Shown here: positions 9,086-64,000 of the stretch, one piece after another | Layout of the letters: each line of letters begins with the position of its first letter | How positions within the stretch are numbered: the stretch's first letter is position 1 | Source of the DNA: Paraburkholderia sprentiae WSM5005 | GTDB lineage: Bacteria > Pseudomonadota > Gammaproteobacteria > Burkholderiales > Burkholderiaceae | DNA length: 64,000 nucleotides | Assembly (NCBI RefSeq): GCF_001865575.2 | Contig: NZ_CP017561.2 | Location: 2,542,001 to 2,606,000, forward strand | Reading direction: 5' to 3' | Notes under the pieces: generated by a model | What the model saw: only the letters and a program-made list of their open reading frames with translations | Told to the model about the DNA's origin: nothing | Databases searched by the model: none | Program-made: the position numbers and the translations under genes

Positions 9086-9280
9086 GAAGAGGATCTCTTG
9101 ACGGCAGTTGCGGTGTGACGCCGGCTCGATGACGCGTCGCGCCACGGTGTTGCCCGCGCCGAAGTGACCCGTATTGTAATGGATGCCCTCGCGGCTGGGC
9201 AGCGCGTGGCGGGACCAAGCACTTACGGGCGATTCGCGAAATGCAACGGTCGTACCGGAATGCGCCCTGAAACCATGGAC

Positions 9281-9308
9281 AAAAAAAAAAGCGCCCGAAG
9301 GCGCTTTT
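9281..9308 (-). terminator. Rho-independent terminator downstream of ihfB
   Basis: The stem GCGCC / GGCGC with a 4-base loop is followed on the minus strand by a run of ten T. It lies about 75 bases after the ihfB stop. It should end the rpsA-ihfB transcript, so lapA-lapB would need read-through or its own promoter in the roughly 195 bases that remain. I recognise no clear promoter there. Confidence 0.82.
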
Positions 9309-9380
9309 CCTGGTCTTTTGACGACTGGCTTTGGCCGCTGACGCTAGCTATGCCACGCTGCAAGACATACAGCGGAGTCA

Positions 9381-9704
9381 TTAAAGGTCGTCATCCGGCT
9401 CGTCGGCCTTCAGCGGTTCCCCCGCGCGACGATCCACCCGCTCGCGCAATTCCTTGCCCGGCTTGAAGTGCGGTACGTACTTCTCGGGTACCAGCACCTT
9501 CTCGCCCGACTTCGGATTGCGTCCGACGCGGGAGGGACGGCGGTTGAGGCCGAAGCTGCCGAAGCCACGAATTTCGATGCGGTGACCTTTGGCAAGCGCC
9601 TCCGACATCGCATCGAGCATCGTCTTCACCGCGAAATCCGCATCTTTGAGAACCAGTTGCGGAAATCGCGTAGCCAGTTGGGCGACCAATTCCGATTTGG
9701 TCAT
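9381..9704 (-). CDS. ihfB: Integration host factor subunit beta
   Basis: A 107-residue DNA-bending HU/IHF family protein. Together with IhfA it introduces sharp bends at specific sites in replication, recombination and sigma-54 promoters. Landmarks are [17 protein letters not shown], the beta-arm [20 protein letters not shown] and [28 protein letters not shown]. The tail after residue 94 ([13 protein letters not shown]) is acidic and longer than in E. coli, as is common in Burkholderia. It starts 21 bases after rpsA behind an AGAGG ribosome binding site. The rpsA-ihfB pairing is conserved across beta- and gammaproteobacteria. Confidence 0.97.
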
Positions 9705-9725
9705 ACTGCAGCAGACCTCTCAGGC

Positions 9726-11441
9726 TTACTGGTTTTGGCCGTCGAGCTTAGCCTTCAGCAACGCACCGAGGTTCGTCGTGCCGGTAGCGGCTGCGCTCGA
9801 ATCGGAAGCAGCGAGGCCGCGGATGGCTTCCTGCTGCTCAGCCGAATCCTTCGCCTTGATCGACAGGTTGATGCCACGCGATTTGCGATCGATGTTAATG
9901 ACCATCGCGTTGACTTTGTCGCCTTCCTTCAGCACGTTGCGAGCGTCTTCCACGCGGTCTTGCGCGATTTCCGAAGCACGCAGATAGCCTTCGACTTCAC
10001 CCGACAGCTGCACAACAGCGCCCTTCGCGTCCACCGACTTGACGGTACCGTCGACGACCGAGCCCTTGTCGTTCATTGCAACGTAGTTGCTGAACGGGTC
10101 GCCTTCGAGCTGCTTGATACCCAGCGAAATGCGTTCCTTCTCGACGTCGATGCCGAGAACGATCGCTTCCACTTCGTCGCCCTTCTTGTACTTGCGAACG
10201 GCTTCCTCGCCGGTTTCGCTCCACGACAGATCCGACAGGTGAACCAGGCCGTCGATGCCGCCCGGCAGACCGATGAACACGCCGAAGTCGGTGATCGACT
10301 TGATAGCGCCGCTGATCTTGTCGCCTTTCTTGAAGTTGCGGCTGAAGTCGTCCCACGGGTTCGGCTTGCATTGCTTCATGCCGAGGCTGATACGACGGCG
10401 GTCTTCGTCGATTTCGAGAACCATGACTTCGACTTCGTCGCCCAACTGGACAACTTTCGACGGAGCAACGTTCTTGTTGGTCCAGTCCATTTCCGACACG
10501 TGGACAAGGCCTTCGATGCCCGATTCAACTTCGACGAACGCGCCGTAGTCGGTGATGTTGGTGACCTTACCGAACAGACGCGTGCCCGACGGGTAACGGC
10601 GCGAGATGCCTTCCCACGGATCGTCGCCCAGTTGCTTGATACCGAGCGAAACGCGGTTCTTTTCCTGGTCGAACTTGAGGATCTTCGCGGTGACTTCCTG
10701 GCCAACCGACAGAACTTCGCTCGGGTGACGCACACGACGCCACGCGATGTCGGTGATGTGCAGCAGGCCGTCGATACCGCCGAGGTCCACGAACGCGCCG
10801 TAGTCGGTGATGTTCTTGACCACGCCTTCGACGATCGCGCCTTCCTTCAGCGTTTCCAGCAGCTTCGCGCGCTCTTCGCCTTGCGTTGCCTCGATGACGG
10901 CGCGGCGCGACAGCACGACGTTGTTACGCTTGCGGTCCAGCTTGATGACGCGGAATTCGAGCGTCTTGCCTTCGTACGGAGTCGTGTCCTTGACCGGACG
11001 CGTGTCAACCAGCGAACCCGGCAGGAACGCGCGGATGCCGTTGACCATCACGGTCATGCCACCCTTGACCTTGCCCGTGATCGTGCCGGTCACGAGTTCG
11101 TTGTTGTCCAGCGCCTTTTCCAGCGACAGCCACGAAGCCAGACGCTTCGCCTTGTCACGCGACAGGATCGTGTCGCCATAGCCGTTTTCCAGTGCGTCGA
11201 TCGCGACGGAAACGAAGTCGCCCGCCTGCACTTCTACCTCGCCCGCGTCGTTCAGGAACTCTTCTAGCGGGATGTAGGCTTCGGACTTCAGACCAGCGTT
11301 CACGACCACGAAGTTGTGGTCGACACGCACGACTTCGGCGGAGATCACTTCGCCAGCGCGCATGTCCTGCTTGGTCAGCGACTCTTCGAACAGAGCCGCA
11401 AAAGATTCGGTATTCGGGGTAGAGGTTTGCAGGTCGGACAT
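9726..11441 (-). CDS. rpsA: 30S ribosomal protein S1
   Basis: A protein of about 571 residues with six S1 RNA-binding repeats. Repeats 3 to 6 are plainest, each with a [19 protein letters not shown] strand and a LVHxSD/E motif. S1 melts mRNA structure and recruits mRNA to the 30S subunit. I use the ATG at 11441 ([13 protein letters not shown]) because it matches the usual Burkholderia N-terminus. An in-frame ATG at 11459 would add MQTLIF, and neither has a strong ribosome binding site, which is common for rpsA. The 181-base gap to cmk holds a terminator-like hairpin, so rpsA probably also has its own promoter. S1 is known to autoregulate in E. coli. Confidence 0.97.
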
Positions 11442-24560: not shown

Positions 24561-24930
24561 GGGGGCGACCTGGTTTCGACAGGGGTTGCGAAGCGGCTAG
24601 GGCATGTCGAGGACCCGTCACCTCGTTAATCAATGGGAAAAACGTAACTGCAAACGACGATACGTTCGCACTGGCAGCCTAAGGGCCGCCGTCCTCTGCC
24701 TAGTTCACTGACGGGCTAGTGTCGCAAGACCGGTAGCAATACCGACAGAGGTCATATACGTCAGTTAAGCCTTGGCGGCGTCACGACGTCCGGGTCGAAA
24801 ATTTGGTGAATCGCCGTAGCGCAGCGTGTTCGTCCGCGTCGCTGCGGTTAAACCAAAAGACAGAACTAAACATGTAGAACTGGTCGTAGAGGACTTCTGG
24901 ACGCGGGTTCGATTCCCGCCGCCTCCACCA
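24561..24930 (+). ncRNA. ssrA: Transfer-messenger RNA (tmRNA)
   Basis: A one-piece tmRNA of about 370 nucleotides that rescues stalled ribosomes and tags the nascent chain. The 5' end GGGGGCGACCTGGTTTCGAC pairs with the 3' CGCCTCC before an encoded ACCA to form the 7-bp acceptor stem. The GGTTCGATTCC T-arm is at 24906-24916. The tag frame runs 24650-24682 and encodes ANDDTFALAA then TAA, the Burkholderia-type tag with a GCA resume codon. Not a permuted two-piece form, since both acceptor halves are in normal order. It is followed by its own terminator. Confidence 0.97.
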
Positions 24931-53026: not shown

Positions 53027-54253
53027 TCAGCCCGGCTTGCACACCTCGTGCAACGCGTTGAGCCGCCGCACCGGGTCCGCGACATACGGATTCGACTCGT
53101 CCCACGCATAACCGGCGAGCACCGCGCAGATCATGCGACGAATCGTCGGTGTCTGCTCCGGGTAGTAGATGATGTCCTGCAGCTCGCCCGTGTACCAGCG
53201 CTCGACGAACGCGCGGAACGTATCGATGCCCTTGCGCAACGGCACGTCGTAATCGGCTGACCAGTCGACCGTGTTGCCGTCGAGCTGCCGGTTCAGCGTG
53301 CGCGCCGCCAGATGCGCGGAGCGCAGCGCGATCGTCACGCCCGACGAAAACACCGGGTCGAGAAACTCGCCCGCGTTGCCGAGCAACGCATAGCCCGGCC
53401 CATGCAGACTCGCGACGTTCGCCGCATAACCGCCGATCTGCCGCACCTGCATCAGGAACGGCGCCCGCCCGATCAGCCGGTTCAGCGTCGGCTCCTGCTG
53501 GATCAGCGCGCGCAGCGTCGCGTCGCGCTGCGCTTGCGGCACATCGAGAAAGCTCGCCTCGGCGACACATCCCACCGAAGCACGGCCGCCTGCGAGCGGA
53601 ATCATCCAGAACCACACGTCGCGACGCTCGGGATGCGTGGCGATGCAAATCTTGTTGCGATCGATGTCGCCGGGAGCCAGATCATCGCGCACATGCGTGA
53701 AGAGCGCGGCGCGCGTCGGCATCCGCGTCGGCGTCTCCAGTTCCAGCAGGCGCGGCAGCACGCGCCCGAAACCGCTCGCATCGAGCACGAAACGCGCTTC
53801 GACCTGATACCCGTGCCCCGCTTCGTCGGCGACCTCGAGCAGCGGCGTCGTATCGGTGCGCATCGCGCTCACCGTGTGGCCGAAACGCACGTCGGCGCCC
53901 TGCGCGGCCGCGCAGCGAATCAGCACGTCGTCGAACAGCGCGCGCTCGACCTGGTACGTGGTGCCCCAGCCCGGCGAATACTTGTCGCGAAAGTCGAACG
54001 ACGAGCGCTGGTCGCGATTCACGAAATACGCGCCGTTCTTGTACTGGAAGCCCGCCTCGACGACGGCCTGCAACATGCCGGCCTCTTCGACGTACGCCAT
54101 GCTTTGCGGCAACAGGCTCTCGCCGATCGAGAAGCGCGGAAAATGCTGACGCTCCAGCACCAGCACCGAGCGGCCTGCTTGACGCAACAGCGCGGCAGCC
54201 ACCGAACCGGCCGGACCGGCACCGATGATCGCGACATCGACCACGGTCCGCAT
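53027..54253 (-). CDS. FAD-dependent oxidoreductase, tryptophan-halogenase/geranylgeranyl-reductase-like
   Basis: A 408-residue flavoprotein. The N-terminal dinucleotide site is VVDVAIIGAGPAGSVAAALL, followed by FPRFSIGESLLPQSMAYVEEAG, a hallmark of the halogenase-like group. The later motif GPGYALLGNAGEFLDPVFSSG near residue 290 completes the FAD site. No WxWxIP halogenase motif was seen, although WFWMIPL is close to it. Proteins of this type recur at the edge of aryl polyene clusters. It is the last gene in the leftward direction, separated from the ketosynthase block by a rightward methyltransferase. Role in polyene tailoring is inference. Confidence 0.82.
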   Translation of the reverse strand: MRTVVDVAIIGAGPAGSVAAALLRQAGRSVLVLERQHFPRFSIGESLLPQSMAYVEEAGMLQAVVEAGFQYKNGAYFVNRDQRSSFDFRDKYSPGWGTTYQVERALFDDVLIRCAAAQGADVRFGHTVSAMRTDTTPLLEVADEAGHGYQVEARFVLDASGFGRVLPRLLELETPTRMPTRAALFTHVRDDLAPGDIDRNKICIATHPERRDVWFWMIPLAGGRASVGCVAEASFLDVPQAQRDATLRALIQQEPTLNRLIGRAPFLMQVRQIGGYAANVASLHGPGYALLGNAGEFLDPVFSSGVTIALRSAHLAARTLNRQLDGNTVDWSADYDVPLRKGIDTFRAFVERWYTGELQDIIYYPEQTPTIRRMICAVLAGYAWDESNPYVADPVRRLNALHEVCKPG

Positions 54254-54398
54254 TGAAGAATCGCTATTCAATTCACTGCTCCAACGGTTTGCATGCGTTG
54301 CTGCAACGCATGCGGGGGTTTCATGCAACGCGCCACATCGCGCGATGCAGCGTCTTGTCGATACAATCCTCCCTCCACAGCAACAACGACGTTTCGCC

Positions 54399-54404
54399 GG
54401 GGAG
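54399..54404 (+). promoter_or_regulatory. Ribosome binding site supporting a GTG start for the methyltransferase
   Basis: CGGGGAG (core 54399-54404) is followed 6 bases later by GTG at 54411. Upstream in-frame starts give a sequence overlapping the divergent gene and unlike methyltransferases. Confidence 0.6.
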
Positions 54405-54410
54405 TGCATC

Positions 54411-55145
54411 GTGCCGTCATCCGAACTGTCCAGTGTGCCCTTTGTGCCGGAGACGGCCTTTGGTACCTGGTTCCTGCGCACGCACACGTGGGAGCACCAC
54501 GTGTTGCGGGTAGCGATCAACGATCTGAAGCGCCTGATCGATGCGCCATTGCCCGACGCGCCGGTCATCGTCGATGCGGGCTGCGGGCAAGGCGTTTCGT
54601 TTCGCCTGCTCGCTGAGGCGTTCCGACCGCGCCGCATCGTCGGCGTCGATTTTCACGCACCGTCGCTGACGCTCGCCGCGCGGGCCGCGCACGCCTGCCG
54701 CGAGATGCTCGCCGACATCGAACTGCTGCATGGCGACTGCGCGCAACTGCCGCTGCCCGATGCGAGCGCCGACATCGTGTTCTGCCATCAGACCTTCCAT
54801 CATCTCGTCGAGCAGGAGCGCGCGCTCGCCGAATTCCACCGCGTGCTCAAACCCGGCGGCGTGCTGCTATTCGCGGAATCGACCGATGCGTACATCAAGT
54901 CGTGGGTGATCCGGCTGTTGTTTCGTCATCCCATGCAGGTGCAAAAGAGCGCCGACGGCTATCTCGACATGATCCGCCGCGGCGGCTTCAGCTTCGGCTC
55001 TCACCATGTTTCGCTGCCGTACCTGTGGTGGAGCCGCGCGACCGACTTCGGTCTGCTCGAACGACTCGGTTTGTACCGGCCGCAACCCGGCAAGCGTCGC
55101 GAGACGCTGGTCAATGTCGCGGCCGTGAAAGCTGGCGAAGCCTGA
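54411..55145 (+). CDS. SAM-dependent class I methyltransferase, polyene cluster-associated
   Basis: A protein of about 244 residues. The SAM site is VIVDAGCGQGVSFRLLAEAF near residue 52, then IVGVDFHAPSLTLAARAA. Motif II is DIVFCHQTFHHLVEQERALAEFHRVLKPGGVLLFAE. It is the only rightward gene in the aryl-polyene-like block, divergent from the FAD oxidoreductase and convergent with the lipoprotein gene. Known aryl polyene clusters include a methyltransferase that modifies the aryl head group. That function is inferred for this gene. It begins at GTG. Confidence 0.82.
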   Translation: MPSSELSSVPFVPETAFGTWFLRTHTWEHHVLRVAINDLKRLIDAPLPDAPVIVDAGCGQGVSFRLLAEAFRPRRIVGVDFHAPSLTLAARAAHACREMLADIELLHGDCAQLPLPDASADIVFCHQTFHHLVEQERALAEFHRVLKPGGVLLFAESTDAYIKSWVIRLLFRHPMQVQKSADGYLDMIRRGGFSFGSHHVSLPYLWWSRATDFGLLERLGLYRPQPGKRRETLVNVAAVKAGEA

Positions 55146-55152
55146 CTCGAAG

Positions 55153-55575
55153 TCAGCCCGCGTCCAGCACCACCAGTTGGCCGCGCACCGCGATCGCGGC
55201 CGCGCTCGGGCTCACGCCGCAGGTGAAGTCGCTCGACGAGTCGGTTTCGGTGCTATGAAAGCGCGTCGACACGTCGATCACCGCATTCGCGTGACGCTCG
55301 CGCGCCGCGGCGCGCAGCTTGCCGACCGCTTCGGCGAGCGCCAGGTGGCACGCTTCGTTCGGCTCGGACATCTTGCGCGCAATGCGCACCGAATACGACA
55401 CTTCGCCGAGCCGCGTCTTCACCGGCTGGTGAGGTTGATCGCCGAAGTACACCGGCACCTCGCCGCGCGATTCGCCACCCGACGCCGCGAACGGCAGCGA
55501 TTTCACTTCCGTGCCGCAGCCGGCCTGCGTCAATGCCACCACCAACATCGCACCCACCAAAGAAAACCTTTTCAT
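55153..55575 (-). CDS. Small lipoprotein, polyene cluster-associated
   Basis: A 140-residue protein with a lipoprotein signal (MKRFSLVGAMLVVALTQAGC; lipobox LTQAGC). The mature part has YSVRIARKMSEPNEACHLALAEAV and then GKLRAAARERHANAVIDVSTRFHS, which resembles the small YbjQ-like fold often mislabelled as an excinuclease subunit in aryl polyene clusters. It would sit on the inner face of the outer membrane or in the inner membrane. It lies 82 bases downstream of the first ketosynthase gene. Function unknown. Confidence 0.78.
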   Translation of the reverse strand: MKRFSLVGAMLVVALTQAGCGTEVKSLPFAASGGESRGEVPVYFGDQPHQPVKTRLGEVSYSVRIARKMSEPNEACHLALAEAVGKLRAAARERHANAVIDVSTRFHSTETDSSSDFTCGVSPSAAAIAVRGQLVVLDAG

Positions 55576-55657
55576 TCTTATCCTCTTCCCTGTCTACGCA
55601 TTTGCGGCCGCTTGCGCGCGGCGCGGCCAGTGATCGTGGCGAGTCGGTGCAGCTGAG

Positions 55658-56896
55658 TCAAACGCCTCGCCACGCTTCGAACATCAGGCTCGCGCAACTG
55701 CCGCCGAACCCGAATGAAATCGACATCGCCGTGTCGATGCGTGCATCGCGCGCGGTGCGCGCGAGCGGCATGTCGTGCACTTGCGGCTCCAGCGCGTCGA
55801 GCTCGGCCGTCCCCGCGATAAAACCGTCGCGCATCATCAACAGCGTATAGATCGCTTCATGCGCGCCGCACGCGCCAAGCGAATGCCCGGTCATGCCCTT
55901 GGTCGACGAAAACGCCGGCACCCCTTGGCCCGATGCGCCGAACACGTCGCGCAACGCGTGCAGTTCTTCGAGATCGCCGAGCGGTGTCGACGGCGCATGC
56001 GTGTTCACGTAGTCGGGACGGCGGCCCGCCGGTCCGAGCGCACCGCGCATCGCGCGCGCGATGCCGGCCGCGCGCGGCGCGACCATGCCCGCGCGATCCG
56101 TGCCATCGCCGAAACCCGTCAGCTCCGCGTAGATGCGCGCGCCGCGCGCGAGCGCATGATCGAGCGCTTCGAGCACCAGCACGCCACCGCCCGACGCAAT
56201 CACGAAACCGTCGCGCTGCGTGTCGTACGGCCGCGATGCGCGGTGAGGCGTGTCATTGAAGCGGCGCGACAGCGCGCCCATCGCGTCGAACATCAGCGTC
56301 ATATTGTCGTGTAGCGCTTCGCTGCCGCCCGCGAGCACGATCTGCTGCCGCCCGGTCTGGATCAGTTGCATCGCCTGACCGATCGCGAGCGCCGACGTCG
56401 TGCATGCCGACGACGGCGAATAGCTGACGCCTTCGAGCCCGAATGTCTGCGCGACGTTCGCCGACGCGGTGCTGCTCATCGCATGCGGCACCGTGTACGG
56501 CGTCACCTTGTCGACGCCGCGCGTTTGCGCGATCGCGAGCGCCGCGTCGTAGCTCGCCATCGCGCCGACGCCCGAGCCGATCACGACGCCCGCGCGCGGC
56601 GACTGCAAGGCCGCGACGGCGAGCCCGGCATCGTCGATCGCACGCTGCGCCGCGTGGCACGCGAAGCGCGCGGTGTCGCCCATGAAGCGTTCGCGCTTGC
56701 GCTCGAATGGCGCCTCGCGCGCGACCGACGCGACGCCGGCCACCTGCGACGCAAACCCGCGCTCGCGCCACGCATCGATCCGCTCGACGCGCGAGCGCCC
56801 AGCGCGCAACGCAGCCGAGACATCGTCGAGCGTATTGCCGAGACACGACACGATGCCCATGCCGGTCACGACCACGCGTTGCAGGCTGACGCTCAT
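55658..56896 (-). CDS. Beta-ketoacyl-ACP synthase A (KAS I/II type), aryl polyene cluster
   Basis: A 412-residue thiolase-fold condensing enzyme. The nucleophile is the Cys in SSACTTSALAIGQAM near residue 160. The two histidines are in YVNTHAPSTPLGD near residue 297 and STKGMTGHSLGACGAHE near residue 332. The Lys of the second motif is also present, so the catalytic set looks complete. Such enzymes extend the polyene chain with malonyl-ACP. It overlaps the upstream ketosynthase gene by 4 bases (ATGA) and is the last ketosynthase of the block. Confidence 0.92.
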   Translation of the reverse strand: MSVSLQRVVVTGMGIVSCLGNTLDDVSAALRAGRSRVERIDAWRERGFASQVAGVASVAREAPFERKRERFMGDTARFACHAAQRAIDDAGLAVAALQSPRAGVVIGSGVGAMASYDAALAIAQTRGVDKVTPYTVPHAMSSTASANVAQTFGLEGVSYSPSSACTTSALAIGQAMQLIQTGRQQIVLAGGSEALHDNMTLMFDAMGALSRRFNDTPHRASRPYDTQRDGFVIASGGGVLVLEALDHALARGARIYAELTGFGDGTDRAGMVAPRAAGIARAMRGALGPAGRRPDYVNTHAPSTPLGDLEELHALRDVFGASGQGVPAFSSTKGMTGHSLGACGAHEAIYTLLMMRDGFIAGTAELDALEPQVHDMPLARTARDARIDTAMSISFGFGGSCASLMFEAWRGV

Positions 56897-58119
56897 CGAA
56901 CGCGCCGGAAAATCAGCGACGTGTTGATGCCGCCGAACGCGAAGTTGTTGCTCATCACGTACTCGGCGTCGATCTCGCGTGCGCCGCCGACGATGTAGTC
57001 GAGCGGCGCGCAGGCCGGATCGACGTTCTCGAGATTCAGCGTCGGCACGTACCAGTTGCGCTTCATCATCTCGATCGTCCACCACGCCTCGATCGCGCCG
57101 CACGCGCCGAGCGTGTGGCCGACATAGCTTTTCAGCGAGCTGATCGGCATGCGCGCGCCGAAGGTCCGCGCGGTCGCATGGCTTTCGGCCATGTCGCCGC
57201 GATCGGTCGACGTGCCGTGCGCGTTCACATAGGCAATCGCCTCGGGCGGCAATTGAGCGTCGCGCAGCGCCAGTTGCATCGCGAGCGCCATCGTGTCGGC
57301 GGTCGGTTGCGTCATGTGCGCGCCGTCCGAGTTGCAGCCGAAGCCGACGACCTCCGCGTGAATCCGTGCGCCGCGCGCCAGCGCGTGCTCGTATTCTTCG
57401 AGCACCAGCGTCGCCGCGCCCTCGCCGACCACGAGGCCGTCGCGCGCGGCATCGAACGGACGCGGCGTGAGATGCGGCTCGCCGTTGCGCGTGCTGGTCG
57501 CGTACAGTGCGTCGAACACGGCGACCGCCGGGCCCGACAACTCTTCCGCGCCGCCTGCCAGCATCAGCGTCTGCTTGCCGGACTGGATCGCCTCGTACGC
57601 GTAGCCGATCGCCTGGCTGCCCGACGCGCATGCACACGAGGTCGGGATGATGCGGCCTTTCAGATCCCAGAACAGGCTCACGTTGACGGCCGTGGTGTGC
57701 GGCATCATCTGCACGTAGCTGTTCGACGTGACGTTGCTCATCGAGCCGGTTTCGAGCATCGTGCCGAACGCGCGGATCGGCTGCACGGAACCCGACGACG
57801 ACCCGTACGCGACGCCCATGCGGCCGTCGGCGATGCTGGTGTCGTCGGCAAGGCCCGCGTCGGCGAGCGCGAGTTCGCTCGCGCGCACCGAGTACAGCGA
57901 TACCGGGCCCATCGAGCGCACCTTCTTGCGCGGGTAATGCGCGGGGGTGGTGAACTCGGGCAGCGGACACGCGAGCCGCGTATGCAGTGACGCGAAGTAG
58001 TCCCACTCGGGCATGCGCCGCACCGCGTTCTCGCCGCGTTTCAGGCGGGTTTCGACCGCGTCCCAGCTATCGCCGAACGCGGTCACGCCGCCCATGCCGG
58101 TAATGACGACGCGCTTCAT
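56893..58119 (-). CDS. Beta-ketoacyl-ACP synthase B (FabF type), aryl polyene cluster
   Basis: A 408-residue ketosynthase beginning MKRVVITGMGGVTAFGDSWD. The active Cys is in PTSCACASGSQAIGYAYEA near residue 165. The histidines are in YVNAHGTSTDRGDMAE near residue 303 and SLKSYVGHTLGACGAIEA near residue 338. VMSNNFAFGGINTSLIFR closes the fold. In the transcription order it follows the ketoreductase gene directly, sharing one base with its stop. The run KS-dehydratase-ketoreductase-KS matches the core of known aryl polyene clusters. Confidence 0.93.
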   Translation of the reverse strand: MKRVVITGMGGVTAFGDSWDAVETRLKRGENAVRRMPEWDYFASLHTRLACPLPEFTTPAHYPRKKVRSMGPVSLYSVRASELALADAGLADDTSIADGRMGVAYGSSSGSVQPIRAFGTMLETGSMSNVTSNSYVQMMPHTTAVNVSLFWDLKGRIIPTSCACASGSQAIGYAYEAIQSGKQTLMLAGGAEELSGPAVAVFDALYATSTRNGEPHLTPRPFDAARDGLVVGEGAATLVLEEYEHALARGARIHAEVVGFGCNSDGAHMTQPTADTMALAMQLALRDAQLPPEAIAYVNAHGTSTDRGDMAESHATARTFGARMPISSLKSYVGHTLGACGAIEAWWTIEMMKRNWYVPTLNLENVDPACAPLDYIVGGAREIDAEYVMSNNFAFGGINTSLIFRRVR

Positions 58120-58844
58120 CAGATCATCCCGCCGTTCACGCCGATCACCTGGCGCGTCAGGTACGACGCGCCATCCGACATCAGAAAGCTCACGACCGAC
58201 GCGACCTCGGCCGGCTGGCCGACCCGGTTCATCGGCACGGTCTTCAGCGCGTGATCGAGCGTCATCTGTTCGAGCATGCCGGTTTCGATCAACCCCGGCG
58301 CGACGCAATTGACGGTGATATTGCGCGACGCGAGCTCGACCGCGAGCGCCTTGCTCGCGCCGATGAGTCCGGCCTTCGCCGCGCTGTAGTTGACCTGGCC
58401 GCGATTGCCCATGACCCCCGACACCGACGCGATCGTCACGATGCGTCCGCCCTGGCGCGCGCGCACCATCGGCATCGTCAGCGGATGCACGACGTTGTAG
58501 AACGCGTCGAGGCCGGTTTCGATCACGACGTCCCAGTCTTCTTCGGTGAGCGCCGGGAACGCGGCGTCGCGCGTGACGCCCGCGCTGCACACGATGCCGT
58601 AGTAGGGACCGTGCGCGGCCAGGTCCGCCTCGAGCGCCTCGCGGCACGCGGCGCGCTCGCGCACGTCGAATTGCAGCACCCGCGCGATGCCGCCCTGCGC
58701 GGCGATGCCCGTCGCGACCGCATCGGCTTCGCTGCGTCCCGTGCGGCAATGCACGGTCACGGCGAAGCCGTCGGCGGCCAACTTGTACGCAATCGCGCGG
58801 CCGATGCCGCGGCTTGCGCCGGTAACGAGAACTCGCCGGCTCAT
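58119..58844 (-). CDS. 3-oxoacyl-ACP reductase (FabG type), aryl polyene cluster
   Basis: A 241-residue SDR ketoreductase. The NADPH motif is RVLVTGASRGIGRAIAYKLA at the N-terminus. The catalytic triad Ser, Tyr and Lys is in IASVSGVMGNRGQVNYSAAKAG near residues 138-155. The C-terminus VNGGMI is typical. It reduces the 3-keto group after each condensation. GGGAG lies about 9 bases before the ATG. Its start overlaps the dehydratase stop by 4 bases. Confidence 0.94.
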   Translation of the reverse strand: MSRRVLVTGASRGIGRAIAYKLAADGFAVTVHCRTGRSEADAVATGIAAQGGIARVLQFDVRERAACREALEADLAAHGPYYGIVCSAGVTRDAAFPALTEEDWDVVIETGLDAFYNVVHPLTMPMVRARQGGRIVTIASVSGVMGNRGQVNYSAAKAGLIGASKALAVELASRNITVNCVAPGLIETGMLEQMTLDHALKTVPMNRVGQPAEVASVVSFLMSDGASYLTRQVIGVNGGMI

Positions 58845-59332
58845 GAACTGACACTCCCTTCGATGAATGACTGAAAATCGGGCGGTTGAAACACCTTGAT
58901 CACGGCTTCTGCGCAGCGCACGCCGCCGTCGTCGTCGAGCGTGCATTCGTAGGCGCCGTGGCCTGCTTCGCTGCGAAGCAGTTCGCTCACCTGAACGCGC
59001 AAACGCGCGCCGCTTCGGAACGCCGGTTGCAGCGCCCGATAGCTGCGCGAGCCGAGCAGCACGCCGGCACGGGCCTGGCCGCCGGCGCGCATCGCGATGA
59101 GCGCGACGTGCGCGGCGATCGCTTGCGCCATCACCTCGATGCCGATCCATGCGGGCATCGCGCCGGCGGCATCCGCATACCATGCATGCGGGTCGACGTT
59201 GGCGAACGCGCTCAACGTGGTGTCGGCGAAGCTGTCGATCGCATCGAGCAGCAGCATGCTGCCGCGATGCGGGATCATCGCCTCGATCGGTTGCCGCGCG
59301 AGTTGCGCGTCGGTCAGCAGAGAAGTCGTCAT
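58841..59332 (-). CDS. Hotdog-fold 3-hydroxyacyl-ACP dehydratase (FabZ-like), aryl polyene cluster
   Basis: A 163-residue dehydratase. IEAMIPHRGSMLLLDAI near residue 16 carries the FabZ-type catalytic histidine. The acidic partner is Glu in AWIGIEVMAQAIAAH near residue 66. It would remove water from the 3-hydroxyacyl-ACP to set each double bond of the polyene. Since no enoyl reductase is seen in the block, unsaturation would be kept. It starts 6 bases after the ketosynthase stop, and its stop overlaps the ketoreductase start. Confidence 0.9.
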   Translation of the reverse strand: MTTSLLTDAQLARQPIEAMIPHRGSMLLLDAIDSFADTTLSAFANVDPHAWYADAAGAMPAWIGIEVMAQAIAAHVALIAMRAGGQARAGVLLGSRSYRALQPAFRSGARLRVQVSELLRSEAGHGAYECTLDDDGGVRCAEAVIKVFQPPDFQSFIEGSVSS

Positions 59333-59337
59333 GCGTG

Positions 59338-60522
59338 TTACCGGGCCAGAATCAGGCTGACATTGCTGCCGCCGAATGCGAACGAGTTGCTCATTGCGTA
59401 CTGCGTGGCCGTGCCGCGCGGCAGATAGCGCGCGCCGTCGACGAGGTCGAGCGCGGGCAGCGCGGGATCGACCTCGCCGTCCCACAGATGCGGCGGCAAC
59501 GTCGCGTTCTCGCGCGCGAGCGTGAGCCACGCGAAGCCCACTTCGGTCGCGCCGGCCGCGCCGAGCTGGTGGCCGGTGAGCGGCTTGGTGCCGCTCGCGG
59601 CGACGCCGTCGGGGAATACGCGCGCCATCAGATGCGCTTCCATGTCGTCGTTCTTCTGCGTGGCGGTCGCGTGCAGATTCACATAGCCCACCGCCGACGC
59701 CGCGATGCCCGCGTCCGCCAGCGCCTCGCGCAACGCGATTTCGCCGCCGACGCCGTGCGGGTCCGGCGCCGAAATATGATGCGCGTCGCTCGATTCGCCG
59801 AGACCCGCGAGCCGCACCGCCGCTTCGTCGCGACTCATCAGGAACACGGCCGCGCCCTCACCGACGTTGATGCCGCAACGGTTGCGGCTCATCGGATTGG
59901 TGCGCAAGCGGCTGGTCGATTCGAGCGACGCAAAGCCCTGCACGGTCAACTCGCAGAGCGAATCGACGCCACCGACGACAACCGCATCGCATAACCGCAA
60001 TTGCAGCAGCCGACGCGCCGACGCAAACGCCTTGGCACTCGACGTGCAGGCGGTCGAAATCGTGAACGCCGGCCCCTGCAGGTCGAGCGCGGCGGCCGCG
60101 AATGGCGCGGCGGTGCCGATTTCCATCTGCCGGTAATTGAAGCTGCCCGGCAATTCGCCGGCTTGCGCGTGATAGACGAACGCGGTCTCGGCCGCCTCGA
60201 TGCCCGACGTGCTGGTGCCAAGCACGACGCCGATGCGCTCAGGGCCGTAGCGCTCGCGCGCGGCTTCGATCGCGGGCGCGATCTGCGCGAGCGCCGCGAG
60301 CAGCAGCCGGTTGTTGCGGCAGTCGTAGCGCGCGAGATCGGCGCGCGGCGCGAGATCGAGCGGCGCAAGCACGCTGCCGACAAACGCATCGCCGATGCCG
60401 GTATGCACGTTGCCCATGCCGCGCGAGCGCGCGGCCGCGAGCGCCGGCACGATCTCGTCGACGTCGTCGCCGAGCGCGTTGATCATGCCGAGCGCGTGCA
60501 AATAAACTGATGGCGCGTTCAT
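59338..60522 (-). CDS. Beta-ketoacyl-ACP synthase C, aryl polyene cluster
   Basis: A 394-residue ketosynthase. The nucleophile is in ISTACTSSAKAFASA near residue 157. The histidines are in YVNLHATATQKNDDME near residue 278 and GTKPLTGHQLGAAGATE near residue 313. MSNSFAFGGSNVSLIL closes the sequence. GTSTSGIEAAE and NYRQMEIG suggest it is more divergent than the other two ketosynthases. GGAGGG precedes its ATG. Its first bases overlap the MMPL exporter stop by 4. It heads the order KS-dehydratase-ketoreductase-KS. Confidence 0.92.
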   Translation of the reverse strand: MNAPSVYLHALGMINALGDDVDEIVPALAAARSRGMGNVHTGIGDAFVGSVLAPLDLAPRADLARYDCRNNRLLLAALAQIAPAIEAARERYGPERIGVVLGTSTSGIEAAETAFVYHAQAGELPGSFNYRQMEIGTAAPFAAAALDLQGPAFTISTACTSSAKAFASARRLLQLRLCDAVVVGGVDSLCELTVQGFASLESTSRLRTNPMSRNRCGINVGEGAAVFLMSRDEAAVRLAGLGESSDAHHISAPDPHGVGGEIALREALADAGIAASAVGYVNLHATATQKNDDMEAHLMARVFPDGVAASGTKPLTGHQLGAAGATEVGFAWLTLARENATLPPHLWDGEVDPALPALDLVDGARYLPRGTATQYAMSNSFAFGGSNVSLILAR

Positions 60523-62981
60523 GCCGCCCTCCGTGATTCCGATGGCATGCCGATAGGCGCAAGCAGCACCGCGACCGCGATGCCGAGCGCGAGCGTCGTG
60601 CCGAAGCTTCTGAGCGCGGGCATCGCGCTGATGCCGAGCATGCCGAACGACAACAACGCGGTGGCCGCCGACAGCAACACGCCGGTCCACACCGCGCCGA
60701 GATTCGCATCCGCGCGCGAACAGCCTTCGCGCAGAAACACCGCATAGTTTGCGCCGACGCCGAGCACCAGCATCAGCGCGAGCCAGTTGAACAGATTGAG
60801 CGGCACGCCCGCATAACCGAACACCGCCAACGCGACGCCGAGCGCGAGCAGCACGGGCAAAGTCGTCGCGATACCGCCGCGGGCGCCGTAGCGCAGCATC
60901 AGCAGCGCGCACACCAGCGCGAGCGCGCCGCCCAACCACCAGCCGGTGTCCACGCGATACGCGCCGAACAGCTTCGACACGCTCGCGGCCTTGTCGACGA
61001 ACACGATGCCGGGTAAGCCGTGTGCGAGCGCGATCAGCGCGGGCTCGTTGCGCGGCGTCACGCCTTGCGGGATCACAACGGCGGCGTAGCCTGCTGGCGC
61101 ATGCGCTGGGTTCGCCCGGTCCGATCCCACCGCGCCGAGCCACAGATGCCGATACGGCTGCGACCAGGGCGCCGCGAGCCAGCGCTCGACGGTGAGCGGC
61201 GCTGCCGGCTTCGCGAACGCGGCGAGCCACGCATCGGCGACTTCGTCCTTGAAGCCGGCTTGCAGCAGCGTCGCGCGCAACGCGGCCGGATCGTGGAACG
61301 CGTGCTGCGCGAGCAGCGCGCGATCGTCGTGCTGACGCTGCGCGGACGGTACGAACTGCGCGACCGACTGATAGCCGCCGACGCTATCCGCGGTGCCGTT
61401 CAGCGCATCGAGCTTCGCGCCGAGCGCTTCGGCGCGTTGCAGCACCGCTTCCTGGGTCGCGCCGCGCACGACGAAAAACTGCGCGCTGTTATCGACGCCG
61501 ACCGCTGCGCGCACCGTGTCTTCCTGCGCGACCAGCGACGCGTCGCGCTGGATCAGCAGATGAACGTCGTCGTCGCTCGTCAAACGCAGCCAGCCGGGCA
61601 CCGCCGCGATCAGCAGCAGCGCCGCGACCAGCCACGCGCGTTTGCCGCCGAGCGCCTGCTGCCAGCGCGCGAGCAGCCGCGCCGCGCCCGCGAACACGCG
61701 TTGCGGGCTGCGCTTGGGCGCGCGCGTGAGCAGCGCGGGCAGCAGCGACAGCACCGACGCGAACGCAGTCGTAATGCCCACCATCGCGAAACACGCGATC
61801 TGCTTCAACGCGGGGAACGGCACCCAGATCAGGATCGCGTAGCCGAGCAGACTCGTCGCGAGCGCAACGCTGAGCGCGGGCCGCACCGTGCGCGCGCCGC
61901 GCCGCGCCTCCCAGTCGCGGCCCGCGCCGAGGTAGACGACGAAATACTGGATCGAATAGTCGACCGCCTCGCCGATCAGGCTCGCACCGAACACGAGCGT
62001 CAGCAGATGCAGCTTGCCGAACACCAGCAGCGTGGCCGCGAGCGCGCAGACGATGCCGAGCGCTGTCGATACGAAGCCAAGCAGCAATAGACGCGGCGAG
62101 CGGAACACCCACGTCATCAGCAGCGCGATGCCGCACAGCGACGCGATACCGATGATGTGCACTTCGCGTTCGGATGCGCTGCGCGCGGCCTCGGCATAGA
62201 ACACGGCGCCGGTGCGCGCCAGCGATACGTCGGGGAACGTCTGACGCAAGCTGCTTTGCGCATCGGCGAGCGCCGCGCGCACCGCCTGCTGCGTCTTCGT
62301 TTCGTAGGCGGAGCCGGGCAGCGTCGCGACGATCAGCACGCTGGTCGTGTCGCCCTGCGCGTCGTGACGATGCGACACGAGCAGGCTGTCCTCGACTTCG
62401 AGATTCGACGTCGCGAGCGGCAGATTGCCGAGCCAGCGTTCGAGCCAACCGAACGGATCGTCGGCGAGCTGGGTGCTGAGGCCGCCTTGCAGCGGGCTAT
62501 AGATGCGTCGCGCGAGCAGGTCGTGCAGCGTCGTTGCGCTGGCGCTCGCGAGCGCGCTGCGATCGGCCGGCGCGAGCAGGCCAAAGCGATACGGCAGGTA
62601 CAGCGCCGCGATCTGTGACAGGTCGAATGGCGGCAACTCGGCCGTCACCGATGCGAATGCGCCGCTCTTTTGCAACGACGCACCCAGTTGCTTCGCGGCC
62701 GCTTTCGCGTGTGCATCGTCGCGGCTCGTGACGAGCAACACGGTGCGGTCGCCCAGCGCGCCGGCGAGCGTGTCGACCGCTTTTTCGGCGACCGGGTCCG
62801 CTTCGGTTGCGGGCAGCAGTGCGAGCAGATTGGTTTCGAGCGGCGACGCTGCCGCGAAGCGCCAGCCGCAATAGAGCGCCGCCAGCAGCGCGAGCGCGAG
62901 CCATGCGGCACGCACGCCCCATGCGCGCTTTGCGGCTTGTTTCGCGGCCTGTTTCGCGGCTCGCTGCTGCGGCACCGCCAT
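60519..62981 (-). CDS. MMPL/RND-family lipid exporter, aryl polyene cluster
   Basis: An 820-residue inner-membrane protein with about twelve helices in two halves: one helix, a large periplasmic loop, then five helices, repeated. Helix-rich stretches include IIGIASLCGIALLMTWVF and WWLGGALALVCALLML. LVFGASLIGEAVDYSIQYF and LMLVLGVGANYAVFLREG are the paired RND/MMPL motifs with acidic and polar residues in helices 4 and 10. It should move the polyene lipid out of the inner membrane to the LolA-like carrier encoded next door. The N-terminus has an AAKQAAKQAAKRA repeat. Its start shares a base with the preceding stop. Confidence 0.9.
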   Translation of the reverse strand: MAVPQQRAAKQAAKQAAKRAWGVRAAWLALALLAALYCGWRFAAASPLETNLLALLPATEADPVAEKAVDTLAGALGDRTVLLVTSRDDAHAKAAAKQLGASLQKSGAFASVTAELPPFDLSQIAALYLPYRFGLLAPADRSALASASATTLHDLLARRIYSPLQGGLSTQLADDPFGWLERWLGNLPLATSNLEVEDSLLVSHRHDAQGDTTSVLIVATLPGSAYETKTQQAVRAALADAQSSLRQTFPDVSLARTGAVFYAEAARSASEREVHIIGIASLCGIALLMTWVFRSPRLLLLGFVSTALGIVCALAATLLVFGKLHLLTLVFGASLIGEAVDYSIQYFVVYLGAGRDWEARRGARTVRPALSVALATSLLGYAILIWVPFPALKQIACFAMVGITTAFASVLSLLPALLTRAPKRSPQRVFAGAARLLARWQQALGGKRAWLVAALLLIAAVPGWLRLTSDDDVHLLIQRDASLVAQEDTVRAAVGVDNSAQFFVVRGATQEAVLQRAEALGAKLDALNGTADSVGGYQSVAQFVPSAQRQHDDRALLAQHAFHDPAALRATLLQAGFKDEVADAWLAAFAKPAAPLTVERWLAAPWSQPYRHLWLGAVGSDRANPAHAPAGYAAVVIPQGVTPRNEPALIALAHGLPGIVFVDKAASVSKLFGAYRVDTGWWLGGALALVCALLMLRYGARGGIATTLPVLLALGVALAVFGYAGVPLNLFNWLALMLVLGVGANYAVFLREGCSRADANLGAVWTGVLLSAATALLSFGMLGISAMPALRSFGTTLALGIAVAVLLAPIGMPSESRRAA

Positions 62982-63694
62982 CACGGTGCTCCGAACAGGC
63001 TGCGCTCGTCCGGCGTCGGCTCGGCGACGGCCGTGCTGTCGGCGAACTCGAGCTTCGTCACGTCGCCGTTCGCGAGCGTGATGCGCAGGCTTTGCAGATA
63101 ATCGCCGCCGCTCATGTCGAGGCCCTTGATCGACTGCGCGAGCTGCGGTTGATTCGGCGTGAGTCGCATGCGCCATTGCGTGGCGTTGCCTTCGGCGCTC
63201 ACGTCGAACTGCGAGTACAGCGCCGACAGATCGCCGCCGAGCATCGCGCGCATCATCTTCGACACCTGCGCGACGCCGCGCGTGGCCTGCGCGCTATGCG
63301 TGCTGACGCGATGGCCGCTGGCGTCGAGCTGCGCGACGTTAGCGTCGGTGATCACGTAGGTGGCCTTGTAGGGCGTGTCGATCTGCCAGATCACACCGCG
63401 CTCGCGGAAGAACAGCAACGTGCCGTTGCTGACGAGCGGCTGCTTCATCGCGGCGAGCGTCTGCGTCTGCGTGAATCGCGCGCGCACGCCCTTGGGTTGC
63501 GCGAGATGCGCGGCGATCTGCGAGACCAGCGCGGCGTTGGCGTTGCTGGCGGCACTGTTGGCGGTCTCGTTGGTCGGGGCTGGGTTGCTTGCGGTAGCCG
63601 CAGCGGCCGACCCCGCGGGCAATGCGAGCACCCCCATCACGCCGATCACCCGCGCGAGCCGCGACACGACGACTGTCAGCGCACGGCGATTCAT
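62981..63694 (-). CDS. LolA-like outer-membrane lipid carrier protein, aryl polyene cluster
   Basis: A 237-residue exported protein. After a signal peptide (MNRRALTVVVSRLARVIGVM to AGSAAAA) comes a short Asn/Ala linker and a LolA-type fold. Typical segments are ARFTQTQTLAAMKQPLVSNG, LLFFRERGVIWQIDTPYKATYVI and LQSLRITLANGDVTKLEFAD. It should shuttle the lipid pigment across the periplasm from the MMPL exporter. The ATG at 63694 overlaps the thioesterase stop by 4 bases. Another ATG at 63703 adds MGT. Confidence 0.85.
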   Translation of the reverse strand: MNRRALTVVVSRLARVIGVMGVLALPAGSAAAATASNPAPTNETANSAASNANAALVSQIAAHLAQPKGVRARFTQTQTLAAMKQPLVSNGTLLFFRERGVIWQIDTPYKATYVITDANVAQLDASGHRVSTHSAQATRGVAQVSKMMRAMLGGDLSALYSQFDVSAEGNATQWRMRLTPNQPQLAQSIKGLDMSGGDYLQSLRITLANGDVTKLEFADSTAVAEPTPDERSLFGAP

Positions 63695-64000
63695 CGTCCC
63701 CATACACGCCCCAGCTTGTCGAATACGACCGGCGGCGACACGAACTGCAATTCCTCGGTGGCGGCATCGACGGCGACCTGGATCGTATAGCCCTTCGTGA
63801 GTCGCGTGCCCGACGCGCAATCGACGATTTCATAGCCTATTTTCAGGCGGTTTTCGTATTCGAGCAGTTGGGCGCGCACTTCGAGCGTCTGTCCGTACAC
63901 GGCGGGCCGTACGTATTTCAGATGCGCCTCGACGATCGGCCATAGATAGCCGGACGCCCGCATCTCGCGATAGTCGTAGTCGAACGCGCGCAGCAGCGCC
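63691..64000 (-). CDS. Hotdog-fold acyl-CoA/acyl-ACP thioesterase, 5' end outside window
   Basis: The C-terminal 102 or so residues of a 4-hydroxybenzoyl-CoA-type thioesterase. They include ALLRAFDYDYREMRASGYLW, PIVEAHLKYVRPAVYGQTLE and GYEIVDCASGTRLTKGYTIQ. The frame is still open at base 64000, so the N-terminus and the catalytic Asp lie outside. It is the first gene of the leftward block visible here. Its 4-base overlap with the LolA-like gene places it in the same operon. Role in releasing or priming the aryl chain is inferred. Confidence 0.85.
   Translation of the reverse strand, partial: ALLRAFDYDYREMRASGYLWPIVEAHLKYVRPAVYGQTLEVRAQLLEYENRLKIGYEIVDCASGTRLTKGYTIQVAVDAATEELQFVSPPVVFDKLGRVWGR

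Follow-up and report, generated by a model that had tools for sequence, protein, structure and literature searches.

The right end of the stretch analyzed here (the window: 64,000 nucleotides, contig 1, bases 2542001-2606000, in a five-contig genome of 7.84 Mb) carries ketosynthase, exporter, and halogenase-like genes and stops within a gene, which raises the question of what kind of pathway these genes belong to and what a halogenase-like protein would do in it. An initial annotation, made from the letters of the window, had proposed an aryl-polyene-type cluster. When the sequence beyond base 64000 was fetched, the whole cluster was found to span 53027-71872 (18.8 kb) and to encode 19 proteins. 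Of this complete aryl polyene (APE) cluster, the window holds the downstream 11 kb, up to the edge that interrupts it.

Gene content and extent of the cluster

All genes named in the initial annotation are open frames with no internal stop. The leftmost gene encodes the halogenase-like FAD protein (408 amino acids [aa]; minus strand), whose most likely extent is 53027-54253, although the longest frame extends to 54637. This longer frame was searched and matched PF04820 (1.3e-24) and PF01494. After 91 bases follows the gene of a SAM-dependent methyltransferase (266 aa; most likely 54345-55145; PF08241, 9.1e-26), which is located on the plus strand, opposite to the rest of the cluster and divergent from the halogenase-like gene. 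The small lipoprotein (140 aa; 55153-55575, minus strand) is an open frame with a lipobox read by eye. It gave no Pfam or NCBIfam family in profile searches and no match at E 1 or better in BLAST against E. coli ApeA and ApeN; by position alone, it is a candidate stand-in for one of these two proteins.

The lipoprotein gene lies 82 bases downstream of an extra FabB-like ketosynthase gene (55658-56896; FabB model, 475 bits versus a cutoff of 630), the first of eight leftward (minus-strand) genes between 55658 and 64131. The next genes encode a ketosynthase related to ApeR (56893-58119; 60% to E. coli), a ketoreductase related to ApeQ (58119-58844; 63% to E. coli), a dehydratase related to ApeP (58841-59332; PF22817, 8e-15; 28% to E. 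coli), and a ketosynthase related to ApeO (59338-60522; 44% to E. coli). The ketoreductase, annotated as FabG, is of the FabG2 type and exceeds the NCBIfam cutoff (TIGR01831, 425 bits), and the FabZ-like dehydratase is of the ApeP type. Each of the three ketosynthases predicted in the window contains PF00109 and PF02801 and the active-site Cys and His; two His were found in the extra ketosynthase, and one His of the ApeO-like protein was read by eye. The MMPL/RND exporter is an ApeM relative (60519-62981; 31% to E. coli ApeM, 5e-80), for which matches to the NCBIfam RND/HpnN models were under their cutoffs. The LolA-like carrier (ApeL relative; 62981-63694; PF19574, 2.8e-15) and the 4HBT thioesterase (ApeK relative; 63691-64000 in the window; PF13279, 1.8e-14; 55% to E. 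coli) were likewise recovered. The statement that most leftward genes overlap also held, as six of the seven junctions are overlaps of 1 or 4 bases and the remaining one is a 5-base gap.

The thioesterase gene is complete only at 64131, and the cluster genes continue on the minus strand to 71872. The genes that had been expected right of the edge were all detected at 64128-71872, so that the carrier protein and priming genes, whose absence from the next 8 kb would have spoken against the proposed cluster, are present there. These are an aromatic amino acid ammonia-lyase (64128-65753; Lyase_aromatic, 3.7e-160), the glycosyltransferase-acyltransferase ApeJ (65740-67467), an aryl (AMP) ligase fused to an ApeI-like dehydratase (ApeH-I; 67464-69173), the two acyl carrier proteins (ACPs) ApeF (69841-70092) and ApeE (70095-70394), and a second acyltransferase, ApeD (70369-71163). 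The lyase start codon was taken from the printed bases, and the searches were run without the first residue. The same part encodes ApeG (69173-69841; 44% to E. coli), for which no Pfam family was found, and the chain-length-factor-like ketosynthase ApeC (71147-71872). Both ACPs contain the DSI site, and ApeC has no Cys motif.

On the left flank, a guanine-deaminase-like gene (sequence read by eye) is convergent with the cluster. A Mn2+ riboswitch (yybP-ykoY; 51.2 bits, barely above the gathering score) begins about 440 bases to the right of the cluster on the other strand, upstream of a membrane protein gene (L004 8313-8526, equivalent to window positions 72313-72526). Elsewhere in the window, a tmRNA gene was detected at 24561-24930 (RF00023, 219 bits).

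Class of the cluster and comparison with known pigment clusters

The 19 proteins were searched against the ape stretch of E. coli CFT073 as the reference, and ape gene functions were assigned from Table 1 of PMC8253772. Fourteen of the 19 proteins matched 15 E. coli ape genes (R, Q, P, O, M, L, K, J, I, H, G, F, E, D, and C) with the order kept, H and I being fused here. The other five have no place of their own in E. coli ape: the halogenase-like protein, the methyltransferase, the lipoprotein, the extra FabB-like ketosynthase, and the lyase, whose gene is inserted between J and K. For E. coli ApeA, ApeB, and ApeN, BLAST against the 19 proteins gave nothing better than E 0.1 (methyltransferase and ApeB, E 0.35); the methyltransferase here is a different one, encoded on the opposite strand. 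The features of an APE cluster are present, namely, ApeO with a chain-length-factor-like ApeC, a ketoreductase, and a dehydratase; dedicated ACPs (PF00550 twice); an aryl-ACP ligase (AMP-binding domain in the ApeI-like fusion); and the genes for transport and attachment (ApeD, G, J, K, L, and M), identified by the search against E. coli ape.

The arrangement was compared with other Burkholderiales. A search of 200 genomes drawn across the order yielded 14 halogenase-like matches at E 1e-100, one of them in the source genome, and the surroundings of the other 13 (L102 and L134-L145) were read. These are APE operons with the order seen here, except that the halogenase-like gene is located between the ApeM and ApeO relatives in all 13, whereas in the present cluster it occupies the downstream end. 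The lyase gene is at the same place as here, between the ApeK and ApeJ relatives, in 7 of the 13. An ApeN-like gene was detected in nine, in contrast to the present cluster; as the other four also gave no ApeN match, ApeN (DUF3261) and the ApeA lipoprotein were not treated as APE defining. According to PMC3949708, which refers to its Table S7, Burkholderia has polyene genes. Among the titles and abstract openings listed from the open-licence literature on aryl polyenes with Burkholderia halogenase, ammonia lyase, or Paraburkholderia, no description of this variant was found.

Gene set, order, and families support the aryl-polyene-type interpretation, and on the sequence evidence it is virtually certain that the region is an APE cluster; the cluster type together with the overall pathway scheme is highly probable. 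Since it carries genes resembling those of a tyrosine ammonia-lyase (TAL) and a halogenase, the cluster could instead be of the flexirubin or the xanthomonadin/arcuflavin type, which is very improbable. The flexirubin cluster flxA-flxY of Chitinophaga pinensis shares the start with TAL and 4-coumarate ligase, as well as LolA, exporter, acyltransferase, and glycosyltransferase genes, in the gene descriptions given by PMC3992019. Flexirubins, however, are esters of a dialkylresorcinol, and dar genes were not seen among the genes of the cluster; the flexirubin models also stayed under the NCBIfam cutoffs (FlxA, 323 versus 700; FlxB, 257 versus 340). Halogenase, LolA, exporter, acyltransferase, AMP-ligase, and methyltransferase genes are common to the xanthomonadin/arcuflavin clusters described in PMC3949708 and PMC3691225, and the arcuflavin gene list of PMC3949708 includes the halogenase. 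Their start is 3-hydroxybenzoate made by XanB2, but no such gene was recognized within the cluster, and a chorismatase of the XanB2 kind is absent from the families found for the cluster's own proteins. Against both types, the gene order here is that of E. coli ape. The individual ketosynthase, ketoreductase, and dehydratase proteins do resemble the FabB, FabF, FabG, and FabZ models, as they would in a normal locus for fatty acid synthesis with only a superficial likeness to a pigment cluster, but these proteins, taken together with the exporter, the LolA-like carrier, the aryl ligase-ApeI fusion, and the two ACPs, follow the ape order, and such a locus is hardly conceivable. The closest matches were therefore not to a different type of locus, the other finding that would have contradicted the initial annotation.

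Predicted pathway and proposed roles of the lyase and the flavoprotein

The pathway was read from the observed gene set, gene order, families, active-site motifs, and conservation, and each substrate and product in it is a prediction. The ammonia-lyase would deaminate tyrosine to 4-coumarate, which the ligase portion of the ApeH-I fusion would load onto ApeE or ApeF. With help from ApeR and the extra FabB-like ketosynthase, ApeO and ApeC would extend the chain with malonyl units; reduction by ApeQ and dehydration by ApeP and ApeI in each round would yield a conjugated polyene. The methyltransferase and the flavin halogenase may modify the aryl head. ApeK, ApeD, and ApeJ would act in release and attachment to lipid, and ApeG, ApeL, ApeM, and the lipoprotein in transfer to the outer membrane. 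The predicted product is an aryl polyene, a yellow membrane pigment. With regard to a possible protective role, PMC3691225 reports greater sensitivity to light and H2O2 for white mutants in a related cluster of Lysobacter.

In the R. sphaeroides TAL, the selectivity position is His89 (PMC9002059). The lyase of the cluster has a full Lyase_aromatic domain with the MIO-forming ASG site, and its best solved relatives are tyrosine aminomutases; its RYHGCG aligned to SHSAG of the tyrosine aminomutase, at the position of the selectivity His. HutH-type enzymes too have His at this position. The NCBIfam scores (426 bits for the BagA/FevW tyrosine lyase and 413 and 407 for the HutH models) were all under the cutoffs, and sequence models alone do not decide between these readings. 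A HutH function is nevertheless disfavored because the genome has another relative of the lyase (38%) at C1:1173314 and because the lyase gene is located in the ape operon. Tyrosine is probably the substrate.

The halogenase-like protein was aligned to the PDB chains 3nix, ChlB4, 3e1t, 5buk, and 8zop. The halogenase motifs GxGxxG, WxWxIP, and Fx.Px.Sx.G, as given in PMC7336383 and PMC8407142, were common to all (WFWMIP and FLDPVFSSG here), as was the Lys of FQYKNGA, a candidate catalytic Lys. Among the matches listed, the best named ones were from Burkholderia sp. H160, Paraburkholderia podalyriae, and P. monticola (91-92%), which makes a Paraburkholderia the most likely source organism; weaker halogenase-like matches exist at 29-35%. 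Eighty of 90 confirmed halogenase-like loci were used as named loci, and the motifs were found in all 78 proteins recovered from them (L069 and L070 were not recovered), GxGxxG having been required by the filter itself. The motifs do not prove halogenation, however, because 3nix, the closest solved relative, has the same motifs and is titled flavoprotein/dehydrogenase. The protein could accordingly be a monooxygenase or another flavoenzyme acting on the polyene, and not a halogenase. In line with this, the NCBIfam score for the halogenase CmlS was 140 versus a cutoff of 900, the next model was the monooxygenase QhpG, also under its cutoff, and related pigments can be free of halogen, as reported in PMC3691225 for a species without the halogenase gene. 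The motif set with the Lys stretch and its recurrence in the recovered proteins argue against it. Halogenation is moderately favored, and another flavoenzyme function is a serious but less probable alternative. No flavin reductase for a halogenase was identified among the 19 genes.

Conservation and the halogenase-like gene outside ape clusters

The find is routine for the genus. The cluster belongs to a well-known pigment family and is an APE cluster of the kind usual in its genus, equipped with the lyase and halogenase-like options that occur in Burkholderiales. Of 58 relatives searched, 34 belong to the same genus, and strong matches among these were found for ApeP in 28, the halogenase-like protein in 27 (leaving 7 without one), the lyase in 27, and the methyltransferase in 25. 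The lyase and halogenase-like genes were both present in 26 genomes and were located on one contig, about 9 to 11 kb apart, in 25 of them (in G019, on two contigs). Eight of the genus relatives were viewed more closely. Four (G003, G022, G029, and G031) have the gene order seen here over the 20 kb read; the stretches of G003, G022, and G029 are truncated on one side. The cluster of G014 has no lyase gene, and that of G010 (L099) has neither this gene nor the halogenase-like and methyltransferase genes, indicating that all three are optional parts. The resulting map of two of them, the lyase, which would alter the starter, and the halogenase-like gene, which would alter the head, may be the useful outcome of the comparison, along with the pattern of gene retention described below. 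The G010 lyase gene is located elsewhere in the same genome (L098 13097-14962), where it adjoins a stretch of 26 residues matching the tail of ApeJ, together with a distant match to a thioesterase; this setting suggests a rearrangement. In G008 (L105), the ape genes are broken over several frames.

An ApeO relative was found within the stored flank in 69 of the 80 named halogenase-like loci and was missing in 11, of which L015 and L066 end at a contig edge and were set aside. In the genomes of the nine remaining ape-less loci (L041, L049, L052, L055, L058, L063, L064 [5.5 kb upstream only], L075, and L078), ApeJ was not found at E 1e-60, whereas it was found at this threshold in all three ape-bearing comparison genomes. 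A divergent ApeO (45-49%) was detected in eight of the nine. The L058 genome departs from this pattern, wholly or in part, since it gave no ApeO at E 1e-60 and yet has a ketoreductase of the second-cluster kind (50%). In the 20-kb stretches read, these eight genomes show a second cluster, in which ACP, ligase-dehydratase, acyltransferase, LolA, exporter, ketosynthase, chain-length-factor-like, and dehydratase matches were present in all eight, ApeG in six, and a glycosyltransferase in six, the other two running to the end of the stretch. In L125, a polysaccharide deacetylase gene is located between the exporter and ketosynthase genes, and this enzyme is also part of the arcuflavin gene list of PMC3949708. 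The deacetylase and the gene content suggest that this second cluster is xanthomonadin-like.

The pN/pS of the halogenase-like gene was 0.06-0.15 in 15 pairs of six ape-less Paraburkholderia loci, 0.03-0.13 among L063, L075, and L078 (three pairs), and 0.24 (median; range, 0.10-0.44) in 55 pairs from ten ape-bearing loci and the window. As divergence differs between the sets, these values were read only for their common sign, purifying selection. Purifying selection without the ape core indicates that the gene is kept working in these genomes. The possibility that the halogenase-like gene is a chance neighbor of the cluster was rejected, because it is located in ape operons in all 13 order-wide matches, ApeO is nearby in 69 of the 80 named loci, and the gene is under purifying selection.

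The ketoreductase genes differed among the ape-less genomes. The second cluster of L041, L052, L055, and L064 includes a ketoreductase gene, 50-52% to ApeQ, which is the only match in the genome at E 1e-60. In L049, L063, L075, and L078, the cluster stretch showed no ketoreductase, and the only match in the genome at this threshold is an ApeQ relative (82-83%) that adjoins the halogenase-like gene. The ape ketoreductase is also the only one in L062 and L067, which are Ralstonia type and have both clusters. Three of the four genomes with the ketoreductase and halogenase-like pair come from Ralstonia or its vicinity, so that perhaps only two or three independent events are represented; most of the genomes are drafts. 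This retention pattern predicts one tailoring enzyme able to serve two polyene pathways. A tentative and rather doubtful extension is that the aryl polyene made by Burkholderiales is halogenated and primed with 4-coumarate and that the halogenase, alone or with the ApeQ-type ketoreductase, outlives the lost ape core and serves the second, xanthomonadin-like cluster. The tyrosine starter, the halogenation, and the service to a second cluster are unproven predictions.

A second polyene cluster in the source genome was not supported: an ApeO search at E 1e-30 gave ApeO itself, the ApeR relative in the cluster, and one 31% match elsewhere. The second, divergent polyene-type cluster was read in 10 genomes (L123-L126 and L128-L133), with a ketoreductase match within the stretch in four and none in six. 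In L063, a Ralstonia genome without an ape cluster, the ketoreductase and halogenase-like pair (9237-11242) is located amid flagellar genes, as read by eye.
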